Source: Desulfobacteraceae bacterium (GTDB lineage: Bacteria > Desulfobacterota > Desulfobacteria > Desulfobacterales > Desulfobacteraceae). From it: a stretch of 33,464 nt of DNA. Under the pieces are notes generated by a model, which was not told where the DNA came from, ran no database searches, and was given only the letters and a program-made list of their open reading frames with translations. A program made the translations under genes and the position numbers. The DNA lies in NCBI GenBank assembly GCA_024226935.1, contig JAAELK010000363.1, positions 1-33,464 on the forward strand, read 5' to 3'. Shown here in pieces: positions 11,530 to 14,730 of the stretch (the stretch's first letter is position 1; every line of letters starts with the position of its first letter).

Positions 11530-12627
11530 TTACTGAAAATTTTGAGACTCGAATGCTTTTTTCCCATCAAAATCCAGAATAATCACTCGAATTTTAATTT
11601 GTTTCCCGGCAAAACCCCCGGCATTATCCTGGATTTTTTTTCCCACAAAGGCAAGTACCCCCGGATAATCCGGATATATATATGAAAATGCATGACGGGC
11701 GGTATTAGCTTTTTTTATAGCCCAAAAAAGTTTTTCATCCCCTGTGATCTTCCTGGACCAACGGGCCAATTTATCTAAGGTCAATTCAGAATTTGCAGCA
11801 TGGGTATGCTCAAATCCCAGGGACATTTTAACGGCCTTGCCAAAGAATACAGTATAAATAATTTGCTGAATGGATCCCTTGGCACAAGCTTCATCAATGG
11901 CTGCCTTAAAAAAATCTCCGGTCTGGATAAAACTTTCCTCAAAAAAACTTGGAAAAAATCCCATGGCAAATCTTTCACTGCGTCTTCCCGTTGTAAACAC
12001 CAGAGTATCAATACCCCTTGCTGCGGCCACGGAAATACCGGATCGAATGGTGGCAATGTAAGCATCATGGGACAAGGGTCTGACAATGCCGGTGGTTCCG
12101 AGAATGGAAATCCCCCCGAGAATGCCAAGTCGAGCATTCAGGGTTTTTTTAGCCAGCAACTCCCCTTTGGGTACAAAGAGTTCAATAAAAATCTTTTTAC
12201 CAGACAAAGCATATTGATCACAAATCTCATCTACAACATTTCTGATCATTTTTTGGGGACCTGCATTGATGGCCGCTTTTCCCACCTCAACTTCAAGACC
12301 AGGTTTTGTAACCTTGCCCACCCCTTTACCACCCTTTATGATTATATTAAAATCCTTGGCTGGTAACAATTTAACTTTGGCCCCGATCTCAGCCTTATGG
12401 GTAATATCCGGATCATCCCCGGCATCTTTTATCACCGAGGCCTGGCAACAGGTATCTGAAAGCCTTAAAACTTTTTTAACGGCGATGGTCCTTTGTTCAC
12501 CATTTAAAAATTTAATCTCCACGGCCACAGGAAGTTGAGAGGAAACCAGGGCCAGCAGAGCAGCCTTAACCGATGCCGCAGCCGCAGCTCCCGTGGTAAA
12601 ACCCTGTTTAAGCTCTTTGGATGCCAT
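11530..12627 (-). CDS. cbiD: Cobalt-precorrin-5B (C1)-methyltransferase CbiD
   Basis: SAM-dependent enzyme that methylates C-1 of cobalt-precorrin-5B in the anaerobic (early cobalt insertion) cobalamin pathway. CbiD hallmarks: GFTTGAAAAASVKAALLAL at the N-terminus, GGKGVGKVTKPGL, PLSHDAYIATI, TTGRRSE, and HTHAANSELTLDKLA. The start was set at ATG 12627 (MASKELKQGFTTG, 365 aa) because AAGGATTACC immediately precedes it. An upstream in-frame start at 12669 would add 14 residues deep inside cbiA. It overlaps the cbiA 3' end by 20 bp and is the last gene of this three-gene unit. Confidence 0.93.
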   Translation of the reverse strand: MASKELKQGFTTGAAAAASVKAALLALVSSQLPVAVEIKFLNGEQRTIAVKKVLRLSDTCCQASVIKDAGDDPDITHKAEIGAKVKLLPAKDFNIIIKGGKGVGKVTKPGLEVEVGKAAINAGPQKMIRNVVDEICDQYALSGKKIFIELFVPKGELLAKKTLNARLGILGGISILGTTGIVRPLSHDAYIATIRSGISVAAARGIDTLVFTTGRRSERFAMGFFPSFFEESFIQTGDFFKAAIDEACAKGSIQQIIYTVFFGKAVKMSLGFEHTHAANSELTLDKLARWSRKITGDEKLFWAIKKANTARHAFSYIYPDYPGVLAFVGKKIQDNAGGFAGKQIKIRVIILDFDGKKAFESQNFQ

Positions 12628-14095
12628 GGTAATCCTTATCTGATATTCCCAATTCTCCGGGTATTGCAACTTTCAAAGTATCTCTAAAGTTAGCACAATT
12701 TTCAACAAAGGTTTGTGCACAATCAGGATTGCTGCCAAAATGAACATGAAGATAGGAACCAAGGGTTTGATTTTTTTGAAATCCTTTTAGTAAAATATCC
12801 TGACCTACCCTTGAAGTAACACTATAAACATTTTTAACTATAGAATCTCCTGAATTACTATTTTTTTCAAGATGTTCATCTTTTAGTGAAGAATAATGAA
12901 ATTCATGCCCCCGGAGTACCGCCCCTTTTTTCCCAATAATGGTATCTGCGGTCAACGTAATTTCCCTATACCCTAACGATCTGAGCTTCTTGGACATCTG
13001 AACAGAAAAGTCAAAGCAACCTGCCATATTATAAGGTTTTTTTTCATCCATAGAAGAGACCTGACTGCACAAATACATGAACCCACCACATTCTCCATAT
13101 ATGGGCATACCTGAAAGACTTAAGGCCTTAATCCGGGCCAGAAGATCCTGCCTGACAGATAAATTTTTGGCAAAGACCTCGGGATACCCCCCCCCAAAAT
13201 AAATCCCATCAATCCCCCGGGGCAATTGATCATCTGCCAAAGGTGAAAAGTTAACAATTTTTGCACCGGCTTTTTTTAATGCTTCAATATTATCCTGGTA
13301 ATAAAAACAAAAAGCCTTATCCCTTGCCACGGCAATAACCGGGGACTCCCCTTTTACAGGGGGCAATATTTTATCTTCTACCAATGGTTTTACCGGACTT
13401 TTCTCCAATTCAAGGATGGGTAATTTTTTCATCAATGCATCCATATCTATATGTTTTTCCACCATGGAAACCAGTATGGAAAGCACTTCGGAAGATATTG
13501 CAAGTTCATCGGCAGTCATCAACCCCAGGTGACGTTCGGGCATAACAATTTTTTCATTTTTTGGCATAAACCCAAGACAGGGAGTCTTGCAATTTTGTTC
13601 AACGGCATCCTTTAGACATTCATAATGCCGCTGGCTGCCGGTCTGGCTGAAGATCACCCCGGCCAGGGTAAGATCAGGATCAAAGGTTTCAAACCCTTTT
13701 ACAATGGCTGCAGCACTTCTGGCCTTACCCTTTGCACTGACAATGAGCAGGACAGGAAGACCTAACCATTTAGCCATCTGGGCTGTGGACCCTGTTTCTG
13801 AAACAGCATCATACCCATCAAACAAGCCCATTACCCCTTCCACCACAGCCAGATCCATACCCTTTGACTTTTCCGCAAACAATTGTTTGTTGTAGGCCTT
13901 TGTCAACATCCAGGAATCCAGATTAAAACTTGTTTTCCCTGTAATCTTGCCATGGTGACCAGGATCTATAAAATCCGGCCCCACCTTGAAAGGTGCAGCT
14001 TTTATTCCCCTTGCACAAAGATAAGAAAGAATGGCCAGACTGACGGTGGTTTTTCCGGTTCCGCTGCCCGTGGCAGCAATGACAAAGCCTTTGAT
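12608..14095 (-). CDS. cbiA: Cobyrinate a,c-diamide synthase CbiA (apparent ATC start)
   Basis: ATP- and glutamine-dependent amidation of cobyrinate side chains a and c. The N-terminal P-loop is AATGSGTGKTT (residues 7-17), followed by KVGPDFIDPGHH and VVEGVMGLFDG. The C-terminal class I glutaminase has PIYGECGGFMYL with the catalytic Cys, and the family block RGHEFHYS. The first usable GTG (13984) would remove the P-loop. Upstream, the frame continues without interruption to ATC at 14093-14095, exactly 5 nt after a perfect AAGGAGG (14101-14107), giving (M)KGFVIAATGSGTGKTT, the N-terminus expected for the family. I therefore place the start at this ATC (495 aa). A sequencing error for ATG is the alternative. 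It lies 17 bp after cbiC. Confidence 0.9.
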   Translation of the reverse strand: MKGFVIAATGSGTGKTTVSLAILSYLCARGIKAAPFKVGPDFIDPGHHGKITGKTSFNLDSWMLTKAYNKQLFAEKSKGMDLAVVEGVMGLFDGYDAVSETGSTAQMAKWLGLPVLLIVSAKGKARSAAAIVKGFETFDPDLTLAGVIFSQTGSQRHYECLKDAVEQNCKTPCLGFMPKNEKIVMPERHLGLMTADELAISSEVLSILVSMVEKHIDMDALMKKLPILELEKSPVKPLVEDKILPPVKGESPVIAVARDKAFCFYYQDNIEALKKAGAKIVNFSPLADDQLPRGIDGIYFGGGYPEVFAKNLSVRQDLLARIKALSLSGMPIYGECGGFMYLCSQVSSMDEKKPYNMAGCFDFSVQMSKKLRSLGYREITLTADTIIGKKGAVLRGHEFHYSSLKDEHLEKNSNSGDSIVKNVYSVTSRVGQDILLKGFQKNQTLGSYLHVHFGSNPDCAQTFVENCANFRDTLKVAIPGELGISDKDYHGIQRA

Positions 14096-14112
14096 GGGAA
14101 CCTCCTTAATAA

Positions 14113-14730
14113 TTATTTTTGTTGAAAGGCCATAATGGCCAGGGCATTGACAATACTGGCCGCAATATTGGACCCGCCTTTTCTACCCTTGTTGGTAATA
14201 TGGGGAAAATCAAGTTCCATGAGTTCATCTTTGGACTCAGCCGCATTAACAAAGCCCACGGGAAATCCGATTATCAATGCGGGATTTGCCTTTTTCTTTC
14301 GAATCAACTCCATTAACCGCAAAAGGGCTGTGGGGGCATTGCCAACCACATAAATTCCACCTTCCATCTCAGTTGCAGCCATATCAACGGCAGCAAGAGC
14401 ACGTGTAGTGCCGGCCTTTTTTGCTCTCTCTGCCACCTTTTCATCTGCAATCAGACAACTGATCTTACCCCCAAATTCATGGATCTCTTTTGTTCTAATA
14501 CCCACCCTTGCCATATTGGTATCTGTGATGATATTTTTCCCATGCAAAATAGCCTGGATTCCTTTTTCAATACCCCCCTTATAAAACCGGACTGTCTTTA
14601 TATAATCAAAATCCGCAGAAGTATGAATCATCCGTCTGACTACCGGCCATTCACTCCCAGTAAAACCATGATCTCCGGCTTCCTCTTCTATAATTTTAAA
14701 ACTTTTATCTTCAATTTCCTGTGGTTTCAT
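14113..14730 (-). CDS. cbiC: Precorrin-8X / cobalt-precorrin-8 methylmutase (CbiC/CobH)
   Basis: Moves a methyl group from C-11 to C-12 of the corrin ring, forming cobyrinate or hydrogenobyrinate. At 205 aa it has normal length. The catalytic histidine lies in RRMIHTSADFDY (H36). Other family blocks are DTNMARVGI, ATEMEGGIYVVGNAPTALLRL and IIGFPVGFVNAAESKDEL, plus the terminal GGSNIAASIVNALA. AGGTGA precedes the ATG by 6 nt. With cbiA and cbiD in the same operon, the anaerobic name CbiC is preferred. It is the first gene of the unit. Confidence 0.93.
   Translation of the reverse strand: MKPQEIEDKSFKIIEEEAGDHGFTGSEWPVVRRMIHTSADFDYIKTVRFYKGGIEKGIQAILHGKNIITDTNMARVGIRTKEIHEFGGKISCLIADEKVAERAKKAGTTRALAAVDMAATEMEGGIYVVGNAPTALLRLMELIRKKKANPALIIGFPVGFVNAAESKDELMELDFPHITNKGRKGGSNIAASIVNALAIMAFQQK

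Follow-up and report, generated by a model that had tools for sequence, protein, structure and literature searches.

The cobalamin (vitamin B12) gene cbiA of the window, which is the whole stretch of 33,464 nucleotides analysed here (contig JAAELK010000363.1 of a Desulfobacteraceae bacterium), is very probably genuinely initiated at an AUC codon, replaced by AUU in most sister species, and this weak start would keep the amidotransferase CbiA low relative to the products of its operon neighbours. AUC, AUU and AUA are hereafter grouped as AUH and the first two as AUY, and ATG, GTG and TTG were considered as canonical start codons. The features of the window on which the analysis is based are the following.

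12608 to 14095, minus strand: cbiA/cobB, recognised by the NF002204 and TIGR00379 profiles and by the Pfam domains CbiA and GATase_3.
14093 to 14095, minus strand: ATC, the inferred start codon of cbiA, for which the fMet initiator tRNA would be the reader; ATC or ATT is aligned here in 6/6 genomes of the genus.
14101 to 14107, minus strand: Shine-Dalgarno (SD) sequence AAGGAGG, 5 nt 5' of the ATC (duplex energy -12.0 kcal/mol).
14048 to 14068, minus strand: P-loop GSGTGKT, absent from the product if the first canonical codon is used.
13982 to 13984, minus strand: GTG, first canonical start codon of the frame, rejected as start on reading the frame.
14108 to 14116, minus strand: in-frame ATA ATT ATT directly 5' of the SD, poor start candidates by their duplex energies.
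14113 to 14730, minus strand: cobH/cbiC (precorrin-8X methylmutase), the upstream gene, with an ATG start and a stop codon that ends 17 nt before the ATC.
11530 to 12627, minus strand: cbiD (TIGR00312), the downstream gene, which overlaps the end of cbiA; its start, likely the ATG at 12627, is our own reading.

The window cbiA thus sits between cobH/cbiC (upstream) and cbiD (downstream). Translated from the ATC, CbiA is a protein of 495 amino acids with the N-terminus IKGFVIAATGSGTGKTT, its stop codon ending at 12608, and it scores 508.2 bits against NF002204 (cut-off 254) and 465.9 bits against TIGR00379 (cut-off 261.4). It carries the domains PF01656 and PF07685, the P-loop being included only when translation starts upstream of GTG 13984; a search of solved structures gave a match confined to the amidotransferase part of two distant proteins.

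Read stop to stop, the cbiA frame opens at 14182, with an in-frame stop just upstream, and contains no ATG, GTG or TTG between this stop and the P-loop. The first canonical codon is GTG 13984, which was rejected as the cbiA start since it would remove the P-loop GSGTGKT; the preliminary description had predicted this loss for any annotation restricted to ordinary starts, correctly so. In the order of the minus strand, the start region consists of AAGGAGG (14107-14101), TTCCC, ATC (14095-14093) and then AAA GGC TTT GTC ATT, and the gene, coordinates, SD and 5-nt spacing that had been proposed for a cbiA opening at ATC 14093-14095 were all recovered on this strand. The three isoleucine codons further upstream (ATA 14116, ATT 14113 and ATT 14110) were also rejected as starts, as they are devoid of an SD (duplex energies of -1.5, -1.5 and +2.9 kcal/mol, vs -12.0 kcal/mol for the ATC). 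No Rfam match for a riboswitch was obtained in the window at the gathering score. Among 20 other loci scanned, a cobalamin riboswitch was detected in three AUH loci (L054, L057 and L049), at 1.1 to 1.8 kb upstream of cbiA, and is therefore not located at the cbiA start. AUH and canonical loci were not distinguished by RNA folding between -30 and +30 around the start (p 0.07).

Relatives were collected by searching cbiA in 58 genomes (match in 57 at E 1e-3), in public genome contigs (best 80 of at least 584 relatives retained), in 291 genomes of the same order, Desulfobacterales (match in 116 at E 1e-120), and in 297 genomes of the phylum (match in 117 at E 1e-100). Same-order matches G069:C128, G070, G200, G208 and G226 and 28 lower-ranked places of the phylum search were left out of the locus set, and loci cut at a contig end (L016, L093), loci with a late alignment start (L298, L318) and 55 duplicates were dropped. 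Of the resulting 239 distinct loci, 162 form a near set (relatives, order and nearest contigs) and 77 a far set. Some public contigs in the near set do not belong to the order (L096, L099, L102, L104 and L110, at a minimum, are outside-order genome sequences), and this set also contains one paralogue (L111, see below); the far set includes one same-order locus (L260). A recount by kinship was restricted to genomes with a kinship code, leaving out the 80 public contigs and L111.

Within the genus, ATC or ATT occupies the aligned codon in all six genomes, each time after GGAGG. The preliminary description had asked whether close relatives have ATG at this codon; none of the five other genomes (L002-L006) does, their codons being ATT, ATT, ATT, ATC and ATT. 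Four of the six genomes are without any canonical start from the stop to the P-loop, and L004 and L006 have one further upstream in frame. In the near set, 76 loci were called AUH, 79 canonical, 5 ambiguous and 2 other, vs 75 canonical, 1 AUH and 1 other in the far set; the kinship recount gave 63 AUH, 59 canonical, 5 ambiguous and 1 other among 128 distinct loci of the same order, and 1 AUH, 79 canonical and 1 other among 81 loci of other orders of the phylum. The 76 near-set AUH codons are 44 ATC, 30 ATT and 2 ATA. For 56 of these calls, the stretch between 15 codons upstream and the vicinity of the P-loop is free of canonical codons, while the other 20 lean on SD strength, a canonical codon being nearby with the SD serving the AUH codon.

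A count independent of the SD, performed on loci with a visible in-frame stop, found no canonical start up to the P-loop in 45/161 near loci vs 0/76 far loci (35/127 in the same order vs 0/80 in the rest of the phylum, by kinship). Among these 45 near loci, the column reads ATC in 29, ATT in 14 and ATA in 1, which makes 44. Two near-set loci fit neither class: L153, the remaining one of the 45, whose ATC is displaced upstream by one codon, and L045, whose sole upstream ATG is 20 codons away. Two AUY loci lie on complete isolate chromosomes, namely L063 (NZ_AP021874, the finished isolate Desulfosarcina alkanivorans PL12), with ATC and a frame devoid of canonical codons between the 15th codon upstream and the P-loop, and L054 (NZ_CP061800), where an additional TTG, 8 codons upstream, lacks an SD. 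ATG was found in three named isolates, Desulfobacter vibrioformis, D. latus and Desulfatibacillum alkenivorans (L068, L077 and L085). As judged from these alignments, the putative AUC/AUU start of cbiA is a widely shared trait, neither an error nor a lone oddity.

Two observations concern particular loci. L240 (G380:C155), from outside the order, has a cbiA in which ATC is preceded by AAGGAG and which clusters with the near clade; a horizontal transfer that included the AUC start, or a misplaced contig, may account for it. In eight AUH loci (L052, L079, L098, L125, L138, L144, L150 and L193), a putative upstream gene, a frame of 100 codons or more, ends with a UAA overlapping the AUU start (AUUAA), which resembles the overlaps present at many canonical cbiA loci.

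The column was considered as a start rather than an internal isoleucine because it is occupied by ATG, TTG or GTG in 30 near-set loci. Among the 61 strict AUH loci, an in-frame stop lies at most 10 codons upstream in 33, and GAGG is present in 43, of which 29 have it at a spacing of exactly 5 nt from the codon. The AUH codons also deviate from isoleucine usage inside the same genes (ATC/ATT/ATA 44/30/2 vs 30.8/32.8/12.4 expected; p 7e-4), the p-values of this comparison and of the SD and second-codon comparisons that follow being inflated by the relatedness of the loci. The median SD duplex energy was -10.75 kcal/mol at the 56 AUH loci whose labels are independent of the SD, vs -5.5 kcal/mol at 79 canonical loci (best candidate). 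The second codon is AAA in 69/76 AUH loci (69/74 of the lysine codons, vs an interior usage of 0.672) and AAA at 20/27 canonical loci. The 16S 3' tail GGATCACCTCCTTT was present in 9/21 genomes searched, and was not found in the window's own bin.

An AUH start is not a general property of the genome. In a sample of 205 kb (the window and 20 further stretches of the same genome), an SD-like site followed after 4-8 nt by ATC, ATT or ATA was counted 3, 5 and 3 times, the count being limited to long frames without a nearby canonical start; these codons were no commoner after SD-like sites in this sample than the other codons, whose counts reached 6. The genome thus makes no general use of AUH starts, and an isolated site of this kind would prove little. 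Chance is ruled out for cbiA because the site is conserved across relatives. On contigs around cbiA, after removal of overlaps, a canonical start was lacking in 0/245 members of six other families, which include cobH (84) and cbiD (37), vs 34/109 for cbiA. A seventh family, ABC transporter ATPases as identified by Pfam, gave 8/33 members without canonical start under the same rule; the frames of these genes run on upstream of the gene, and with Walker A as the reference the count becomes 0/28.

To our knowledge, conserved AUH starts are known for only a handful of bacterial genes. In E. coli, infC starts at AUU, and pcnB is reportedly limited at translation by its AUU start, a finding said to be that of Binns and Masters in 2002. 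Like these genes and ccpN, cbiA has an AUH codon at a conserved N-terminus without a usable canonical start, conserved among related species and preceded by a strong, well-spaced SD. With infC (IF3), it shares a near-cognate AUH start behind an SD that is conserved across species, but infC is subject to IF3 feedback, whereas cbiA uses AUC or AUU and almost never AUA, and is a metabolic enzyme gene without known role in start selection, hence without an obvious feedback loop. pcnB, with its AUU start, would resemble cbiA in being limited at translation, and differs from it in gene and function.

The accessible text of a study on S. aureus (PMC13009471) describes infC starting at AUA, and conserved AUU/AUA starts with an extended SD that yield about 10% of the output of an AUG reporter in poor medium, this output rising to as much as 30% for ccpN when the medium is rich. 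The same text presents ccpN (AUA) as a repressor gene found from S. aureus to B. subtilis, and cvfC1 (AUU) as encoding a 61-aa protein found among Staphylococci; both combine a conserved weak start with a strong SD as cbiA does, but cbiA encodes an amidotransferase, has AUC as its commonest codon and shows the trait in numerous families within a single order. The evolution of start codons was surveyed by Belinky et al. (2017; PMC5622118, available to us in part), and AUG was replaced by AUU in 1/61,358 ancestral AUG starts; against this rarity, the presence of AUY at a homologous site in dozens of species is striking. The same survey reports that weaker start codons are accompanied by a stronger SD; its GUG and UUG starts are thus comparable to cbiA, but, in the portion available, the switches reconstructed are mostly between AUG, GUG and UUG, with two switches to AUU. 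Among the matches listed by a search of the open-licence literature, which could miss such a report, there was no earlier report of a cbiA with an AUY start.

The precedents of infC, pcnB, ccpN and cvfC1 suggest how the cbiA start may function. The 30S subunit would be anchored by the strong SD AAGGAGG, and the fMet-tRNA (anticodon CAU) would pair with the first two bases of AUC or AUU, leaving a mismatch at the third. IF3 would be expected to reject most of these initiation complexes, and the few that pass would give a normal CbiA starting with fMet. The weak codon would in this way limit CbiA synthesis relative to that of the operon neighbours, while the strong SD, the 5-nt spacing and the AAA second codon would prevent the output from falling to zero. 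Given an AUC/AUU start despite a strong SD, translation of cbiA is probably held low, and a lowered expression of CbiA, as the preliminary description had supposed, is plausible by analogy with these genes; we also infer that this low output may be maintained by selection.

Several other explanations were weighed against initiation at AUC. A sequencing or assembly error at 14093, for which the preliminary description had left room, could be suspected in an assembly of 590 contigs, but it is practically ruled out by the presence of ATC or ATT at the same column in independent assemblies, including the two complete isolate chromosomes. Just as improbable is a dedicated initiator tRNA with a GAU anticodon that would read AUC and AUU as efficiently as AUG and leave expression unreduced: no support for it was found, the 24 matches to an initiator anticodon-arm pattern (in 19/21 genomes) all having CAT, although a differently built initiator would be missed by this pattern, and AUH starts would not be expected to be as uncommon as they are in the 205-kb sample. 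Translation might also enter the cbiA frame by a frameshift from cobH and yield a CobH-CbiA fusion. The window is permissive in this respect, since the cbiA frame is open past the cobH stop with an offset compatible with a -1 shift, and a -1 slip at the end of cobH, CAACAAAAATAA, would read through IIIKEVP into CbiA. However, cobH was detected upstream in only 26/76 AUH loci (of the 50 others, 47 have another context and 3 too little sequence), and among these 26 the offset between the two frames is 0, 1 or 2, even within the window's genus; in 13 of them a fusion is blocked because the cbiA frame is closed by a stop at the end of cobH or beyond it, and in two (L020 and L038) the cobH frame extends beyond the AUH codon. 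An SD at fixed spacing would moreover be purposeless under a frameshift. Since upstream genes and frame offsets vary, a frameshifted fusion is refuted as a general cause, and it is very improbable altogether. AUH starts are commoner with cobH upstream (26/73 AUH loci vs 3/78 canonical loci; p 5e-7, uncorrected for ancestry), which may reflect either a link to this gene order or shared ancestry.

The alternative to be taken most seriously, possible but on balance doubtful, is that AUC and AUU are tolerated rather than selected, a strong SD making the third base nearly neutral so that the codon drifts. On a FastTree tree built without the first 18 residues, parsimony gave 25 switches between AUH and canonical starts, vs 54 when the labels were shuffled (lowest value in 300 shuffles, 46); AUH is thus clustered but labile, often gained or lost, and such a number of switches is compatible with drift. 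Changes among ATC, ATT and ATA at the AUH tips amounted to 18. A test of the third base on disjoint nearest pairs also favours drift, with 11 changes observed vs 10.8 expected in 42 pairs, i.e. a neutral rate and no sign of selection against AUG in these pairs; counting both members of a pair gives 11/73 vs 18.5 (p 0.02), but with double counting. On the other hand, tree-based changes between pyrimidine and purine at the third base were 13, vs a mean of 21.2 (sd 3.8) in 69 four-fold columns, i.e. fewer than in 65 of the 69, 4 columns being as low, which is only suggestive of selection against AUG and stands out less when the columns compared have a similar purine content. Drift is also difficult to reconcile with the extreme rarity of AUG to AUU replacement in general, as far as the available part of PMC5622118 goes, with the near absence of ATA, with the persistence of AUH in deep clades, and with the single AUH call among 81 loci outside the order, in a gene that groups inside the near clade (L240).

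A more specific version of selected initiation at AUC/AUU can be proposed, in which the codon acts as a translational valve on cobalamin synthesis, either because CbiA output follows the balance of IF3 to ribosomes or because scarce CbiA spares siroheme-type substrates of DsrN; this is speculative and rather unlikely. DsrN is, in the accessible text of PMC10504309, a CbiA homologue needed for siroheme amidation. A second CbiA homologue of the window genome (L111, 1477-2886) lies behind dsrB and dsrD and has an ordinary ATG start; as it adjoins these two genes, it was identified as DsrN. The window cbiA was rejected as a DsrN candidate, being located between cobH and cbiD and not beside dsrAB/dsrD. 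With both enzymes in one cell, scarce CbiA might limit cross-amidation with the substrates of DsrN.

AUH starts in a vitamin B12 enzyme gene across many genera of mostly sulfate-reducing bacteria have a practical consequence: gene callers restricted to ATG, GTG and TTG will remove the P-loop of such cbiA genes, and this loss in annotation could distort the B12 capacity assigned to sediment bacteria. The relatives also offer a natural series in which AUC, AUU, AUA, AUG, GUG and UUG occupy the same homologous site and the SD differs accordingly, so that both the trade-off between start codon and SD and any selection for weak starts are directly testable.

Two further possible cases of AUH starts were encountered. 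In the order, infC appears to start at AUA, as read by eye on the aligned loci (L211-L238), ATA being at the aligned place in 25 of the 26 parsed loci and ATC in one, and this is perhaps the IF3 autoregulatory start; the infC motif was not found in L220, L228 and L239. In the window's genus (e.g. L236 of the window genome), a GTG two codons upstream abuts an SD-like sequence and leaves some doubt about the AUA start there. On the minus strand of L332 (position 9672 of the reverse complement), a frame of 324 codons follows GGGGGGAAGCC and ATT; canonical codons are absent from the 15 codons on either side, and this is possibly a further AUU start or a chance occurrence.
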